From positions 1-64,000 of the forward strand of contig NW_001798967.1 of NCBI RefSeq assembly GCF_000165425.1: 64,000 bases of DNA. Reading direction: 5' to 3'. Of this stretch, positions 1 through 7,797 are shown in pieces. The DNA is from Paramecium tetraurelia (lineage: Eukaryota > Ciliophora > Oligohymenophorea > Peniculida > Parameciidae). The position numbers and the translations under genes were made by a program. Below the pieces are notes generated by a model. That model made no database searches. It had not been told where the DNA came from and worked only from the letters and a program-made list of their open reading frames with translations. Positions within the stretch are counted from its first letter, which is position 1, and each line of letters begins with the position of its first letter.

Positions 1-228
1 CACACGGATAAGACTCAGGCAGAACGAGTCAGGCGGGTATCCGCCATATGTCTGGACGAGGCAGAACGAGTCAAGCACACAACCAATTGGGCTTCCACGC
101 CCGGGCACCTTCACCTACTTAGCTAGCAAAAATAGTGAGATGGGTATTCTTCCTCTAGGAGAGCCGGGATTCTTTGCCTTCGCGTAACTGTCTATTTCTT
201 TAGAAATACGTAGATAGGGGTGGCTTTA
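1..228. other. GC-richer segment of unknown origin at window start
   Basis: This stretch is clearly richer in G+C than the rest of the window, and the change occurs at about 230-240. It contains a direct repeat, ggcagaacgagtca, near positions 19-32 and 61-74. A perfect 5-bp stem, ggcgg/ccgcc, lies between the two copies. A second small inverted repeat (tatttc/gaaata) lies near 191-206. I see no convincing Paramecium-style gene in it. It may be a foreign or organellar piece joined at a contig end, a structured RNA fragment, or an unusual subtelomeric segment. I cannot decide between these from sequence alone. Confidence 0.4.
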
Positions 229-787
229 CCAAACCCAAACATTAATTTTTGGCTAACCCTCAAATTAAAAAGATAATTAGTGATCATAATATCAAATACA
301 ATGCTAACCTCAAACCCAAACTTGAAGGGTATTTACAACGAAATTCCTTAAAGTTTTAGCGAAACTTAATTATGAAAAAAGTACTTGGTGAATATATGAA
401 TGCCAAAGCCATTATTTTATTCCAAGAACCTGAATTCCTTGAAGAATTGTAAGACCCTATGTAATAATTATCATCCAGAAAATCTAATTGGGATAGGAAT
501 AATCAGACGGCTTAAATAAAGGATAAAATTTTAAGGATTGACCACATTATGCTAATTTTAAAGTTTTTTTAAAAATATATTCTTCATATTGAATCGTATT
601 CTGAAATTGATGAAGATTTTTGGATTCTATGGGCTTTACTAAATAATAGGTTTCTTAGATTTTTTCTGCCTTTCCAAATTTAATTTGAAATTTTAATGTA
701 ATATCTAAATTAATAAGAAGATTTAACTATACCTTTATTATTATAATATTATAATTCTTTTGGGTTTTTCTCAATGGCTAAATCATG
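229..787 (+). CDS. Coding-like open frame, unidentified, 5' end not defined
   Basis: With TGA as the only stop, one plus-strand frame stays open from about 229 to a TGA near 785-787. Composition over the first 350 bases looks coding, for example LANPQIKKIISDHN and later EPEFLEELQDPMQQ. In-frame ATGs occur at about 371 and 395. I recognise no family. The 3' part overlaps, on the other strand, the last exons of the TPR gene, so the true 3' end is probably earlier or involves an intron I could not place. The 5' end runs into the GC-richer segment, so the gene may be truncated there. Moderate to low certainty. Confidence 0.3.
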
Positions 788-3700
788 ATATTTCAATGCT
801 TCTTGCAAATCTATTCAGATGTTATAAAGTAATAGCTATTTATCATACAAATGTATTTTACCTTTGTTATTATAAAACCCAGATTCTTCTGGATTTTTCT
901 CAATAGCAAAATCATAATATTCCAAAGCTTCTTCAAATTTATTCATTTTATCCAACATAAATGCTATAATAGTATGAAGAGTTGAGTTTACCTTTGCTGT
1001 TATAATAGTCGGATTCTCCAGGGTCTTTCTAAATAGCTAAATCATAAAATCTCAATGCTTCTTCTTATCTATTCATGCCTTATAAAGTAATAGCTACAAC
1101 AGTATGCCAATTTGATATTACCTTTGTTTAAATAATAGTTTGATAATTCTGGGTTTTTCTCAATGGCTAAATCATAATAATTCAATGCTTCTTCAAATCT
1201 ATTCATGTTTTATAAAGTAATTGCTGGAATAGTATGAAGATTTAAATTTACCTTTGTTGTTAAATAGGTCAGATAATTCTTCTGGTCGTTTCTAGATAGC
1301 TAAATCATAATATTTCAATGCTTCTTCAAATCTATTCAAGTGTTGTAAAGTCATCTCTATCATAGTATGCAAATTTTGGTTTACCTTTGTTGTTATAATA
1401 ATCTTATAATTCAGTTTTTTTCTTAATAGCTAAGTCATAATATTTCAATGCTTCTTCGTAACTATTCATTTAATTTAAAGCCAATGCTAAATTTAGAAGA
1501 ATTATACCTTTGATATTGTAGGTATCTGCAATTCTTAGTAGTTTATCAAAATATTTAAATCACAAATAGCAATTACTTCTTGCGAATCTCCTCATATTAT
1601 ATAATGCAATTGCTAAAATATATCAAATTAGAAAATACCTTTATTATTATAGTAGTCAGAATCTTCTGGGTTTAACTAAATTGCTAAATTATAATTTTTC
1701 AATGCTTCTTCGAATTCATTAATTTTATCTAAGATTAATGCTATGGTTATAATTTGGTTTTTCTACCTTTGTTATTATAAAAGGTTGAAACTTCTGGACT
1801 TTTCTATATTGCTAAATCAATATATTCTAATGCTTCTTCATTTCTACCTAACAATTCTAAAGTGTCGGCTAGTACATTACGCTATTCAATTATACCTTTG
1901 TTTTTGTAATACTATGGGTTTTCAGGATTTTATTAAATAGCAAAATTATAGTATTCCAAAGCTTCTAATTATCTATTCATTTAATTTAACATAAATGCTA
2001 TGATGGCATACAGATTAGAGTTTACCTTTTTTGTTATAATAGTCTGATTCTGCTGGATTTTTCTAAATAGCTAAATCATAATATTTCAATGCCTCTTATT
2101 ACCTATTGATGTTACTTAATGTATCAGCTTGTAATTATATATATTGAATTCTACCTTTGTTGTTATAATATTCTGCTTCCTCTGGGCTTTTCTGAATTGC
2201 TATATCATATTATTCTAAAGCTTCAATAAATCTCTCCATTTTATTTAAAGTTAATGCTAGGTTATTTTGATTGATTGTATTATACCTTTATTGTTATAAT
2301 AGTCTGATTCATCAGGGTCTTTCTAAATAGCTAGATCATACTGTTCTAAAGCTTCAACTAATCTATTCATTTTATTGAGTGTTATCCCTGAGTTATAATT
2401 TGAGTTATACCTTTACTCTCAAAATATTTTGATATCTCAGGGTTTTTCTAAATAGCTAAATCATAAAATTATAATGCTTCTTCAAATCTATTCATGTTAT
2501 TTAAAGTCATTGCTACAATAGCATGTAAGATTTATTTTTACCTTTGTTATTATAATAGTTTGATTCATTAGGGTTTTTCTCAATAGATAAATCATAAAAT
2601 TTCAATGCTTCTTCATACCTATTGATTTTATTTAATATTATTGCTAAGTTATTAGATTGATTATATTATACCTTTGTTGTTATAATAATTTGATATTTCT
2701 GGTTTTTTTTCAATTGCCAAATCAGAAAACTCCAATGCTTCTACAAATCTATTCAATTTGATTAATATCATCGCTAAGATAATTTAAAAATTTAACTGTA
2801 CCTTTATTATCATAGTTTTCTGAATCTTCTGGGTTTATCGAAATTGCTAAATCAAAATATTTCAATGCTTCTTCATATCTTTTTAATAACTTTAAAATTT
2901 TAGCTATGAATTATGCTATTTTATTTGCCTTTGTTATTATAATAAACTGATTCATCTGGTTAATTCTCTATAGCTAAATTACAATATTCCAAGGCATCTT
3001 CAAATCTATTCAATGTACTTAAAATAAGTGCTTTGAGTTTAAAAAAAAGTTAATAATACCTTTACGACTATAACATTCTGAATCTTCAGGATTTTTTGAG
3101 ATGGCTTGATCAATTTATTCCAAGGCCTCTTCATATCTATTCAACAATTCTAATGTTCCAGCTATGAAGTTATGCTATTTATGTATATACATTTGCTCAT
3201 ATAATAGACTGAGATTTAGGAATTTTTTTAAATAGCCAAATCATAATATTACAGAGCTTCTACTAATCTATTCATTTTATTCAAAGCCAAAGCTAAATTA
3301 TTTTTGAATTTATACCTTTGGTATAATAATAGTGTGATTCTTCAGGATTTTTAGAAATAGCTAAATCAGAAAATTCCAGAGATTCTTCAATTCTATCCAT
3401 TTCTTTTAATATAATCGCTAACATATCAAGAAAACTTAATTTTACCTTTGTTATAATAATAATCTGATTGTTCTGAGGATTTTTAAATTGCTAATTCAAT
3501 ATATTTTAATGCTTCGACAAATTTCTGAGCATTTTGTAATGCAATTGCTAATATTACTGAAATAATATTACCCTTATAGTTATAAAAACTAGATTCCTCA
3601 GGGTTTTTCTAAATTGCCAAATCATAATATTAGAATGCTTCCTCAAATCTATTCATTTCTGATAAAGTATTGGCTAGGAGATTATGATGATAAATTATGC

Positions 3701-5288
3701 CTTTGCTATTATAAAATACAGGATCTTCAGGGTTAATTTTAATAGCTAAATCATAATATTTCAATGCTTCTTAATGCCTATCCAACATATTTAAAACAAT
3801 CCCTATTTACTGATTTAATTATACCCTTGTTCAAATAATAGACTGAGTCTTCAGGATTTTTCTGAATGGCCAAATCATAATTTTCTAATGCTTCTTCATA
3901 TCTACCTAATCTATCTAAAGTGTCTCCTTTGATTTTAGAATAATTTAAATATACCTTTATTATTATATAGATCTGCATCATCAGGGTTCTTCTAAATAGC
4001 TAAATCATAACATTCTAATGCTTCTTTGAATCTGTTCATTTTATCTAATGTCATGGCTTAGAGAATTTACTGATTTTTCATACCTTTATTATTATAATAG
4101 TCTGATTCATTCGGGTTTTTCTTAATTGCTAAATCATAATATTTCAATGCTTCTTTATGTCTAGCCAACTTATCTAAAGTCATCGCTTAGATATCATATG
4201 ATTTACGTACCCTTGTTACAATAATATTCTGATTCTTCAGGGTTTTTCTTAATAGCTAAATCAAACCATTTTAAAGCCTATTTATATTTTTTCATTTTAT
4301 CTAAACTCATTGCTAAATTATATTGAGACTTAATTTTACCTTTATTATTATAATAGGCTGGTATTTCTGGATTTTTCTAAATAGCTAAATCAAAATTTTC
4401 CAAAGCTTCAATAAACCTATTCATCTTATCCAAAGTATTGGCTTGAATATTATTCTTGGTAAATTTATACCTTTGTTAAAATAATATTCAGAATAATGAG
4501 GGTTTTTCGAAATGGCTAAATTATACAGTTCTAACGCTTCTGCAAATCTATTTATTTTATCTAACGCTATCGCTAAGGAAATGTGCAATTTAATTTACCT
4601 TTGTTATTATAATGGTCTGATTCTTCAATGTTTTTCTAAATACCTTAATCAAATTATTTTTATGCTTCTTAAAAACTATTCATTTTAACCAGGATTTTAG
4701 CTATTTCTATGAAGGAGAGTTACATTTAATTTTTTCATTGACTGATTCTTTTGGAAATTTTTAGAGTTCTAAACTCGAAATGTTTTATTCCTATTTCTCC
4801 AATATATTTGCTATTTAAATTTTACTTAAACTTTTTTGTGAATCATTTACTTGGATCTTATTGAAATTAATAACATCCTCCTCCTAAAATTGCATTCCTT
4901 AATCTGATAATTTTGTCAAATTTTTTAATTACAAAGAATGATCGAGTATTTCCTCTTTGAAGCAAATTTGAAAATTATTGTATGATTCAATCTAAATACC
5001 ATCTTATTCCAAAATTTTCATCTGATTTTTGGAACTCATTTCAAAACATTTTTTTTTTTTCTAATTTAATTGACTTTTTTTCCAAAATTTTTTATATTTT
5101 TGTAAATTTGCTTTATTCTGAATATTTTATGGGTGGGATGTAACTGAATCCTTAGCATGTCTATCCTCAAAATTAATTGATTGTTCATCCAAAATTATTC
5201 GCTAGAGATTGTTAGCATCTTTTAGTTAGGTCAAGTTATAAATAGAACAATTTAGTTATTCATCTTCTCTTTATTGACTTACATCCAT
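783..5288 (-). CDS. Large tetratricopeptide-repeat (TPR) protein; each repeat is a separate exon
   Basis: The start is the ATG at 5288-5286 (MDVSQQREDEQ). About 185 residues of charged, Q-rich N-terminal sequence follow, then roughly 31 tandem 34-residue repeats. The repeat consensus is about A-x-L-x-x-L-N-R-F-E-E-A-L-E-Y-Y-D-L-A-I, continuing K-N-P-E-x-S-x-Y-Y-N-N-K-G, which is a TPR helix pair. About 32 introns of 23-30 nt are visible, one per repeat, always in phase 1 inside the Gly/Ala codon at the repeat boundary, giving a period of about 125-132 bp. TPR arrays are protein-binding scaffolds; no catalytic domain is seen. Oddities: two introns start with GC (2904-2928 and 3674-3700). One repeat has an in-frame TGA at 1562-1560. 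The last repeat has a one-base insertion that produces the TGA at 785-783, although repeat-like sequence continues to about 735. Confidence 0.8.
2904..2928 (-). other. GC-AG intron in TPR gene
   Basis: On the minus strand this 25-nt intron begins GCAAAT and ends CATAG. It lies exactly where the sister repeats have GTA...TAG introns, in phase 1, and removing it keeps the TPR frame on both sides. A GC donor is unusual against the otherwise GTA-starting introns of the window. Confidence 0.7.
3674..3700 (-). other. Second GC-AG intron in TPR gene
   Basis: This 27-nt intron on the minus strand starts GCATAA and ends CCTAG. Its position and phase match the other repeat introns, and splicing it restores the repeat frame. 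It is the second GC donor in the same gene. Confidence 0.7.
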
Positions 5289-6394
5289 TTACTATTTTGT
5301 TTCATTTTCACAAAATTACTTCATAATTTATCCAAAATGCTATCTTTAATTTATTAATATTAGAAATATCTAAATTTCATTTTTATTAAGATATCAAAAC
5401 AAAATATTGGAGATAAAACAATAAAGTATCTTTATGAAATGGCAAAAGCAAATTTAGGGAATTTTAGACAATCTTATATTGTTTGAAAAGGCTAGGAACA
5501 ATATTTTCATTTGATTATTTTTCGAATTGAAAAAAGACTTTAACCAAAACAAAAATGGAAAATCCTATTTAAATACTTATCCAAATTATATAATAAATGA
5601 ATGATTAAAATCAAATTTTCAGAGACGTTCAATGAATAAGCAGTAATTCTGTTTTAACTAAATAAATTAGATACTTAAGATAGAATAAAATTTTCAAATA
5701 AACCAATTTATTTAAGTTCTGTTATCATCTATTTGTAAAATGATTGTACTAAATAATTAAAGTTAATTGGACTGATTGATAATAATCCATAAGATTTACT
5801 TTGACTTGATATTTGATTGGTTCTCATTAATTTAAATATTATTCTATCTGGTAAATGTGAGAATTTTCTAGGTTAAGACTCAAATGATTGTTGAAGAAAC
5901 CTTTTAGTCAAGGAAAGCTGGATTTTTCAGAATTATTCACTATAATATTTTTTCCATAAAATTGATTAAGCCTGAGTCCTTTATATTAAAGGTGAAGATA
6001 TTAAGAAACTAGATTAAATTCAAATTATTTAAGAATAAATAAGCACAGAAGAGCACAAATAAGAATGAAATGAGTTTTCTGTCTATATCCTTCTTAATTT
6101 ACGGTTTTAGTAGTTATGAATTCAATGTAAAAAATTTCAACTCATTTCAATATAATACTTTATTTTTGACAGAGTAAATCCTTTCATCTAATTTAGACAT
6201 TCCAAATATTCGAACACTTCTAGACTTCAAACATTAATTATACATTTAAATTACGTATTAAAGGCAAATTATAAAGAAAAATTGAATTCTATTTCAAAAA
6301 TTTATCAGAATAGTATTTGTTTAAATAAATAACACTCTATTATTGCATTAAAAAAATAAAATTATTTCTCTGTGTTTTTAATAAAATCTAATAG
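5289..6394. other. Intergenic stretch without a supported gene
   Basis: A+T-rich sequence lies between the 5' end of the TPR gene and the 3' end of the pseudokinase gene. A plus-strand frame beginning ATG at about 5887 stays open for some 130 codons (MIVEETFQSRKAG...) to a TGA near 6290, but its composition is not convincing, and with a single stop codon such frames arise by chance. Nothing else could be supported. Confidence 0.4.
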
Positions 6395-7556
6395 TCAGTC
6401 CGTCTGATCGATAATTGTAATTTGGCTTCCTTTGTAAGCATTAAGTTTTAGGTCGAGCCCAACTTCATCTAAAGTTGTCTATGCTCTTTATCTTGCTGAC
6501 TTAATCAATTAATCTATTTCGTTAAAATCAAATGCAGTGGCTGAATAAACTTATGATTTTATAGCTGAACCTTAGGTATGGAATGAACTAAATTGCGATT
6601 CTAAAAATTCTAAAGCTATTATAATTTTAACCTTTTTATCTTCCAGGAGGATTCAAAAAATGGGAAATATTGTCCGACTACGGTTAAAGTTAATCTTAAA
6701 TTAATAAATAATTTAGACGATCTTAAGGGTGAAATTTTAACATGGAACTCAATAATTATTTAAAAGAGTTGGAAAATTAATGTTTCAAACAAAATTTATC
6801 AATTTGTTAGGATACAAAATCTCTTTTATATTCTAATGTATCCTAATTATAATATTCACCACATCTAATGCCGCTCATTAAACTAACAATCATTAGACCT
6901 AAACAAAACACATTCACTAGTTCTTAATCTGTGCTATCAGTTCTGATTTCTCCTTTTAATAATATTAGTTATTCAGGAGCAATATATTCCAAATCTCTTA
7001 AACCAAAGAGAATCTTAAAATAATTATTGATCTTTTGAGTTTCCAAAAATTGATCAAAATATTTGATATTTCTATTTTCGTCAATTAAAACCTTTTGAGG
7101 GTGAATGTCTTGGATTTCATTTTTTTAATCCTTCATATATTAACAAACATTTGAAATCTCAAAAATAATATATAAAAGCTCTTATTCTGTATAAGTTGTT
7201 CTATGTATTTTTCTTTGTTTAAAATCATTGGATAATGACTCACTGTAATATTCAACTGTTATCGACAAGACCATAAATGAACTACATAAGTCATCAATCT
7301 CTCCCTTTTCATGCTTCTTTATTTTTATTAAGCATCTATGATTCAGTTATTATCTATCAATATTGTTTTCAATATACCTTTTAGTAATACTTTATTCCAA
7401 AGCTTTTGCATCTATATCAGATGATAAAACATGCTTAATTTCAGTAAAGGTAAGGTTATTATTTTTATCTAAATAGACAGCAACCTCTCCATAATTGGGA
7501 TCAAGTTTTCTTTCTAAGAATTCCCTTGACTATTCCTTCTCTTGTTGGTTGCCCAT
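6395..7556 (-). CDS. Probable pseudokinase with N-terminal myristoylation signal
   Basis: The start ATG at 7556 gives MGNQQEKEQSREF, a good N-myristoylation context (Met-Gly). The predicted length is 379 residues after removing one 22-nt intron near 6620-6641. The C-terminal two thirds resemble a protein kinase lobe. Where the catalytic loop should read HRDIKPxNIL the protein has DIHPQKVLIDENRNIKYFD, so the catalytic Asp context and the DFG motif are lost. YIAPEQ, corresponding to APE, follows at roughly residue 240, and a hydrophobic VFCLGLMIVSLMSG helix corresponds to subdomain IX. No glycine loop was recognised. This suggests a catalytically dead, membrane-tethered kinase-like protein; the role is unknown. 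Confidence 0.7.
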
Positions 7557-7797
7557 AAAAAAATAAATTTAATATTGATAATTAGTATCTAATCGTTTCT
7601 TATTAATTATCTTAAACCCTCAATATTCAAGAATTGAAAAGGTTTAGAAAAAAATTACAAAATTAATGAAGAGTGCTGAATATTAACATTTGTACAATTT
7701 CTTCAAGCTATGCTTTAAGAATGTATGCATTTCTTCCATTTGTTATTTATTTTAGTTTAAATGAATCAGAAGATATAAATTAATTTAATTAGAAATC

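Follow-up and report, generated by a model that had tools for sequence, protein, structure and literature searches.

A predicted TPR gene of Paramecium tetraurelia with one micro-intron per repeat and its probable growth by exon-intron copying

The window analysed here, 64,000 nucleotides (nt) of Paramecium tetraurelia DNA (contig NW_001798967.1, positions 1 to 64,000), carries near its start, on the minus strand, a gene in which a predicted N-terminal coding exon is followed by an array of TPR exons, each separated from the next by a single tiny intron. Related arrays lie elsewhere in the same genome. The data indicate that the window very probably holds a macronuclear Paramecium gene encoding a long predicted TPR solenoid, which grew by copying of a unit composed of one 102-nt exon and one spliceosomal micro-intron.

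Architecture and spliced frame of the window array

Tandem Repeats Finder (TRF) reports a tandem array at 728-4687 with a period of 130 and 30.7 copies, and a cyclic profile, composed of a 102-column exon and a free intron and first anchored on donors, resolves 31 full TPR exons and 32 introns on the minus strand from 4754 to 692 (Table 1), in agreement with the roughly 31 exon-plus-intron units of a preliminary description of this DNA. As that description had it, the exons are mostly 102 nt long (28 of 31, with two of 105 nt and one of 103 nt) and all 32 introns are in phase 1. It had given intron lengths of 23-30 nt and had called phase and length constant while the sequence diverged; phase and divergence bear this out, but the lengths, at 21-29 nt, are narrowly spread rather than constant. 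The same codon is interrupted in every unit, and the proposed Gly or Ala accounts for most junction residues over the 31 exons (Ala 25, Gly 3), the others being Ser (2) and Glu (1).

Donors read GTA in 30 introns and GCA in two, the acceptors are all AG (24 TAG, six AAG, two CAG), and the combination GTA..TAG occurs in 22 of 32 introns (69%), compared with 69.8% and 77.4% for two P. tetraurelia intron classes in the passages of PMC5663052 drawn on here. In size and in their GT/GC..AG ends, the window introns fit Paramecium spliceosomal micro-introns (~20-34 nt), which prefer GTA..TAG according to passages of PMC11334263 and PMC5663052. A control in which splice signals were left unscored regained 32/32 window introns with identical borders and, over eight arrays, placed GT..AG at 168 of 180 junctions and GC..AG at six, a partly dependent result in that the control kept the donor-anchored profile, a constant bonus for introns and a slight preference as to length. 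We infer that all array introns are spliced in vivo.

Translated with the ciliate code, the spliced frame runs from ATG 5324 through ~200 residues and 24 TPRs to a TGA in exon 25. Pfam TPR_1 matches the spliced protein with an E value of 1.1e-113 in 13 stretches, and exactly 34 residues are encoded by 28 of the 31 exons; the ~200-residue N-terminal part holds no Pfam best stretch, and a DNA search of the genome with the 5' flank returned only the self-match, with no relative elsewhere. In the TPR_1 register (residues 365-397 matching model positions 2-34, junction Ala 371), the codon split by the intron falls at TPR position 8. Each exon is thus a TPR in circular permutation, and the intron lies inside the repeat, not at the repeat border where it had previously been placed. 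Position 8 is one that we take, from TPR structures, to lie in helix A.

The +1 shift in exon 25 brings the frame to a TGA after 24 TPRs, and the window copy as assembled is therefore truncated; past this TGA, exons 26-30 are otherwise well-formed TPRs. The same extra C is seen at profile column 29 in exons 25 (~1582) and 31 (~805), which suggests a copied frameshift or a common assembly artefact. Truncation, decay or an error of assembly would each account for the state of the window copy, and decay and assembly error are not separable from the assembled sequence. A higher-order period was considered and set aside: TRF scores 256 bp above 130 and a lag test gives p = 0.0085 at lag 2 among 15 lags, so that a two-unit step in this array is possible, if weakly indicated.

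Table 1 Features of the window (window coordinates). Introns 1 to 32 were all placed with the cyclic profile; a full stop in the strand column stands where no strand is assigned.
Feature	Position	Strand	Description	Basis or remark
N-terminal coding exon	4724..5324	-	from proposed ATG 5324; ~200 residues, Q/N-rich	
Whole exon+intron array	692..4754	-	31 full TPR exons, 32 micro-introns	cyclic profile
First full TPR exon	4599..4700	-	102 nt	remaining full exons are the gaps between successive introns
Intron 1	4701..4723	-	23 nt GTA..TAG	
Intron 2	4573..4598	-	26 nt GTA..TAG	
Intron 3	4442..4470	-	29 nt GTA..AAG	
Intron 4	4313..4339	-	27 nt GTA..TAG	
Intron 5	4186..4210	-	25 nt GTA..AAG	
Intron 6	4057..4083	-	27 nt GTA..AAG	
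Intron 7	3927..3954	-	28 nt GTA..AAG	
Intron 8	3803..3824	-	22 nt GTA..TAG	
Intron 9	3674..3700	-	27 nt GCA..TAG	GC donor
Intron 10	3548..3571	-	24 nt GTA..TAG	
Intron 11	3418..3445	-	28 nt GTA..TAG	
Intron 12	3293..3315	-	23 nt GTA..TAG	
Intron 13	3162..3190	-	29 nt GTA..TAG	
Intron 14	3031..3059	-	29 nt GTA..AAG	
Intron 15	2904..2928	-	25 nt GCA..TAG	GC donor
Intron 16	2774..2801	-	28 nt GTA..TAG	
Intron 17	2644..2671	-	28 nt GTA..TAG	
Intron 18	2513..2541	-	29 nt GTA..TAG	
Intron 19	2388..2410	-	23 nt GTA..CAG	
Intron 20	2257..2285	-	29 nt GTA..TAG	
Intron 21	2128..2154	-	27 nt GTA..AAG	
Intron 22	1998..2025	-	28 nt GTA..TAG	
Intron 23	1869..1895	-	27 nt GTA..TAG	
Intron 24	1741..1766	-	26 nt GTA..TAG	
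Intron 25	1613..1638	-	26 nt GTA..TAG	
TPR exon 25	1508..1612	-	105 nt	+1 shift (profile column 29), two more single-base insertions; TGA in spliced frame
Intron 26	1487..1507	-	21 nt GTA..TAG	
Intron 27	1357..1384	-	28 nt GTA..TAG	
TPR exon 27	1252..1356	-	105 nt	one additional codon, frame intact
Intron 28	1224..1251	-	28 nt GTA..CAG	
Intron 29	1094..1121	-	28 nt GTA..TAG	
Intron 30	964..991	-	28 nt GTA..TAG	
Intron 31	836..861	-	26 nt GTA..TAG	
TPR exon 31	733..835	-	103 nt	+1 shift, profile column as in exon 25
Intron 32	705..732	-	28 nt GTA..TAG	
Element	103..185	.	95% identity to C100:34356-34437	

Sister arrays in the same genome

DNA searches that took the window array and arrays L059, L060 and L061 as queries, together with profile runs, gathered at least 25 loci including the window (at least 24 sisters), with 397 full exons, 363 of them exactly 102 nt long, and 424 GT/GC..AG introns; all these counts are lower bounds. 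The spliced frame is conserved across the family: the 363 exons of 102 nt contain no TGA in the spliced coding frame and 333 and 820 in the other two, and 10 of the 25 loci have no frame-broken exon. The opposite strands of the 21 sister loci to which this check was applied held no array (score under 60). Divergence at codon positions 1, 2 and 3 of the window is 0.276, 0.228 and 0.412 (28 exons of 102 nt), and of 20 arrays compared over all pairs, 15 have their greatest divergence at position 3.

The introns of many arrays are array-specific. GTA..TAG accounts for 231 of the 424 family introns (54%), and the AAG, CAG and GTT classes are concentrated in particular arrays: GTT donors in 11/14 L020 introns, AAG acceptors in 11/16 L022 and 11/24 L014 introns (with 14/16 and 22/23 exons in frame, respectively) and CAG acceptors in 17/31 L021 introns, while L061 introns are mostly 25 nt long. 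L059 (C24:250500-258000) has 38 full TPR exons, five of them 103 nt long, and 41 introns; 34 of the 41 have GTT donors, nearly all of these being 27 nt long, with near-identical GTT..TAG sequences. Introns whose length is a multiple of three number 36/41 in L059, 32 of these 36 containing an in-frame TGA, and 93/383 in the rest of the family. Since the L059 introns are largely clonal copies, their in-frame TGA pattern stands nearer to one event than to many. The locus L003/L049 (C62:207000-214509) has directly joined TPRs next to intron-split ones and is possibly an intermediate or mixed array.

The arrays are found in excess near contig ends, with 11/25 within 1 kb, 13/25 within 10 kb and 19/25 within 35 kb (binomial P 5e-18, 1e-9 and 4e-8; expected fraction within 1 kb 0.0067), these distances having been picked after the data were seen and C24 being counted twice.

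In P. bursaria, the proteins P0003 and P0114 show, in the protein sequence and by eye, insertions at the same TPR position, GKNFSCNL before Gly and GTVYLFYI before Ala, which would fit retained 24-nt introns; a pattern scan flagged a different P0114 insertion (GIADYIE) and missed both of those seen by eye. The insertions suggest, without proof, that the intron site may be older than the split between P. bursaria and P. aurelia.

Joint copying of exon and intron and the alternatives

Nearest-relative and Mantel tests over 22 loci, with three bases trimmed at each intron end, compare the histories of exons and introns. Of 407 introns, 53% find their nearest relative within their own array (shuffled-label mean 5%), as do 68% of 380 exons (shuffled 5.6%), with the own-array share of introns ranging from 0.11 (L018) to 0.89 (L020) and standing at 0.30 in the window. 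Introns and exons diverge jointly: mean intron distance is 0.027 (0.044 without L059) at exon distances below 2% and 0.443 beyond 35%, close to the 0.466 between arrays, and intron and exon distances are correlated at p<0.05 in 12 of 19 arrays for the following exon and likewise in 12 of 19 for the preceding one. Copying in blocks is visible at the start of L021, where a three-unit block with three distinct introns is repeated and the lag test dips at 3 and 6. The kinship of introns within their own array, together with intron divergence that rises with exon divergence, points to exon and intron having been copied together, and tandem copying of the exon-intron unit is strongly favoured by these comparisons. 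The window alone is insufficient to settle copying against gain; it is the sister arrays that decide. As such, tandem duplication of the unit, one of the two origins offered in the preliminary description, gains strong support, whereas gain of introns at a fixed site is disfavoured by array-specific introns, and the pairing of each intron with its own exon, proposed there as a check, is found in many of the sister arrays but only weakly in the window. The two frameshifts, the sister arrays and the contig-end location go beyond that description.

Several observations weigh against growth by joint copying of intact, spliced units. The window correlation is weak (r = 0.147, p = 0.042 for the following exon; r = 0.126, p = 0.055 for the preceding exon) and its introns are hardly closer to one another (0.467) than to those of other arrays (0.480); the weak r reflects a mean exon distance of 0.31, which lies where introns are near saturation. 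Across the arrays tested, the following-exon correlation misses p<0.05 in seven of 19 arrays (L010, L013, L016, L022, L023, L025 and L060), r being negative in L010, L025 and L060, and five of 20 arrays (L016, L020, L024, L025 and L061) have their greatest divergence at a position other than 3. The frame is broken in 24 of the 397 family exons, including window exons 25 (three extra single bases) and 31 (one), and eight of 32 window introns have non-TAG acceptors. Contigs C155, C4, C24 and C26 begin or end inside an array, so that assembly breaks contribute to the contig-end excess. Public gene models agree in part: the P. tetraurelia proteins P0005 and P0015 match the spliced arrays L019 on C158 and L016 on C138, respectively, and P0005 splices 10 of 15 L019 introns exactly as the profile does, but it retains three (28, 27 and 29 nt) and treats two otherwise, while P0015 splices three of 20 L016 introns, keeps three (30, 24 and 24 nt) and reads 14 otherwise or leaves them outside. 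Of the six introns kept by these models, four are multiples of three in length. Annotation of the family looks unreliable at some introns, and since both proteins are themselves predictions, they support the exon-intron model only in part.

The most probable history is one in which a single founder unit, a TPR with an intron in its position-8 codon, would stand behind all arrays. Its tandem duplication would have gone together with a spread to 25 loci or more, with a preference for the neighbourhood of contig ends. The multiplying DNA unit would be one 102-nt exon with one spliceosomal micro-intron; since exon length is a multiple of three and phase-1 introns lie on both sides, units can be gained or lost in any number without breaking the frame, presumably by unequal recombination. 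Each array would then expand separately, by single units or blocks, and carry its own intron types along. Subsequently, exons would be held by selection on the protein, probably a binding scaffold, and introns would drift in sequence, and to a small extent in length, towards an end state, nearly reached by the window array, at which splice ends, position, phase and length range are all that is conserved. A more far-reaching version would see in the unit a cassette predating the P. bursaria/P. aurelia split and a still-active duplicator at chromosome ends, with block rewriting, at least 25 arrays encoding fast-changing recognition scaffolds akin to the leucine-rich repeat repertoire of Tetrahymena, introns passing through a life history from identical to saturated, and a tolerated AAG class; taken as a whole, this version is tentative and rather unlikely.

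A different origin, in which the TPR array grew without introns and each repeat later acquired one independently at a shared proto-splice site (AAAG before C/G), finds some footing in a proto-splice-like junction that is identical in nearly every unit, in intronless TPRs that this genome also has at 102-nt spacing (such as C10:132555 and 132657) and in the mixture of contiguous and intron-split TPRs on C62. It would require hundreds of separate gains, however, and it leaves the array-specific sequences, lengths and end types of introns (L061, L059, L022 and L021) and the tracking of exon distances by intron distances in many arrays without explanation, which makes it very improbable. Still less credible is a reading of the 21-29 nt AT-rich segments as variable linkers that are translated in some isoforms. 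In the window, seven of the 32 segments have a length divisible by three and no in-frame TGA, and P0005 and P0015 keep three introns each, but the other 25 are not multiples of three, so that reading through them would throw the TPRs out of frame at most junctions, and the conserved frame is present only after splicing, with GT/GC..AG ends in 32/32.

Compatible with joint copying as the origin of the array is the proposal that the window copy itself is a decaying pseudogene, its odd acceptors and frameshifts being neutral damage. The two +1 shifts, the TGA after 24 TPRs, six AAG acceptors, two GC donors, a contig-end position, introns near saturation and the absence of the window protein among 120 of 516 database matches listed all speak for it. 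On the other hand, 24 successive exons are open after splicing, positions 1 and 2 are less divergent than position 3, the GTA..TAG share resembles that of the P. tetraurelia classes in the passages of PMC5663052, and AAG acceptors are also common in the mostly in-frame arrays L014 and L022; decay of this copy is possible, at somewhat less than even chances.

Contig ends, other repeats and known ciliate arrays

Among the matches listed, several contigs carry telomere-type repeats of mixed CCCCAA/CCCAAA sequence at their ends, and such repeats also occur at some internal places; the reversed-pattern control matches the same repeats and is uninformative. The C76 array ends ~180 bp from telomeric repeats, the only array seen directly beside one; in C165 and C50 they lie ~6 kb and ~17 kb from the array. 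The C100 counterpart of window 103-185 lies 35 bp from a telomeric-repeat match (C100:34472), which supports a position of the window array near a telomere; the element recurs once more in C162 (80%).

Tandem repeat growth at contig starts is not limited to TPR. WD40 matches in the same genome are, where several are grouped, mostly spaced at 126 bp, with no room for a 20-nt intron (from coordinates), and occur within ~2 kb of the starts of C222, C8, C191, C216, C205, C46, C108 and C187, both among the best 150 of 1622 candidates. Together with the intronless TPRs, this spacing indicates that tandem growth seems not to need an intron; a requirement of the intron for array growth was considered and rejected on these grounds. 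Most simply, the intron would be a passenger that arrived with the founding unit.

The closest known kind is the leucine-rich repeat (LRR) array of Tetrahymena with its 90-bp exons, which the passages of PMC6564038 (Xiong et al. 2019) drawn on here call unique to Tetrahymena and in which P. tetraurelia LRR genes are without a 90-bp peak; a check of the present genome gave five LRR_6 matches, with 115/115 candidates scored. As far as those passages go, both systems are ciliate arrays with one repeat per exon, exon lengths that are multiples of three, extreme phase bias, growth by exon-plus-intron copying and array length that varies between genes. Association with a non-LTR retrotransposon is a further trait of the Tetrahymena arrays. 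The Paramecium arrays differ in domain (TPR, not LRR), exon length (102, not 90 nt), phase (1, not 2), intron length (21-33 nt versus ~50 nt and more) and number (at least 25 loci versus thousands of genes). The youngest Tetrahymena copies are enriched near chromosome ends, to be set beside the 11/25 arrays that lie here no more than 1 kb from a contig end, a figure confounded by assembly breaks. In P. tetraurelia, passages of PMC3464196 describe TPR and WD40 repeat expansion that multiplied copies of internal eliminated sequences (IESs), carried along as introns are here; they report IESs and not an intron per repeat. Passages of PMC1553488 on exon shuffling in domain repeats describe single or block duplication, with exon borders sometimes inside the domain (nebulin), and contain nothing on ciliate micro-introns. 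No description of one-intron-per-TPR arrays in Paramecium was found in the part of the open literature searched, most subscription papers and bioRxiv lying outside this search.

The arrays show one-repeat-per-exon growth in a ciliate genus other than Tetrahymena, where domain, length and phase all differ, and offer 424 micro-introns in closely similar exon contexts, whose relative age can be read from companion exons. They open to direct test the requirements of a 25-nt intron for splicing and the tolerance of GTT, GC, AAG and CAG splice ends, and the rule against translatable introns can readily be tested on L059. With up to 41 introns per array (L059), compared with a mean of 2.3 per Paramecium gene (passages of PMC11334263 and PMC5663052), and an average retention of 3.3% per P. 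tetraurelia intron (PMC5663052, Table 1, seen in the same passages), simple arithmetic gives full splicing of about one third of 32-intron transcripts if introns are independent. How genes with 20-41 introns survive such retention can likewise be tested in these arrays.

An Rfam scan of the window gave no match at gathering score. The contig start at positions 1-260 of the window is rich in G+C, with one motif repeated and brief stretches that resemble telomeric sequence. A neighbouring open frame of 363 codons (6528-7619, minus strand) resembles, as read by eye, a degenerate protein kinase.

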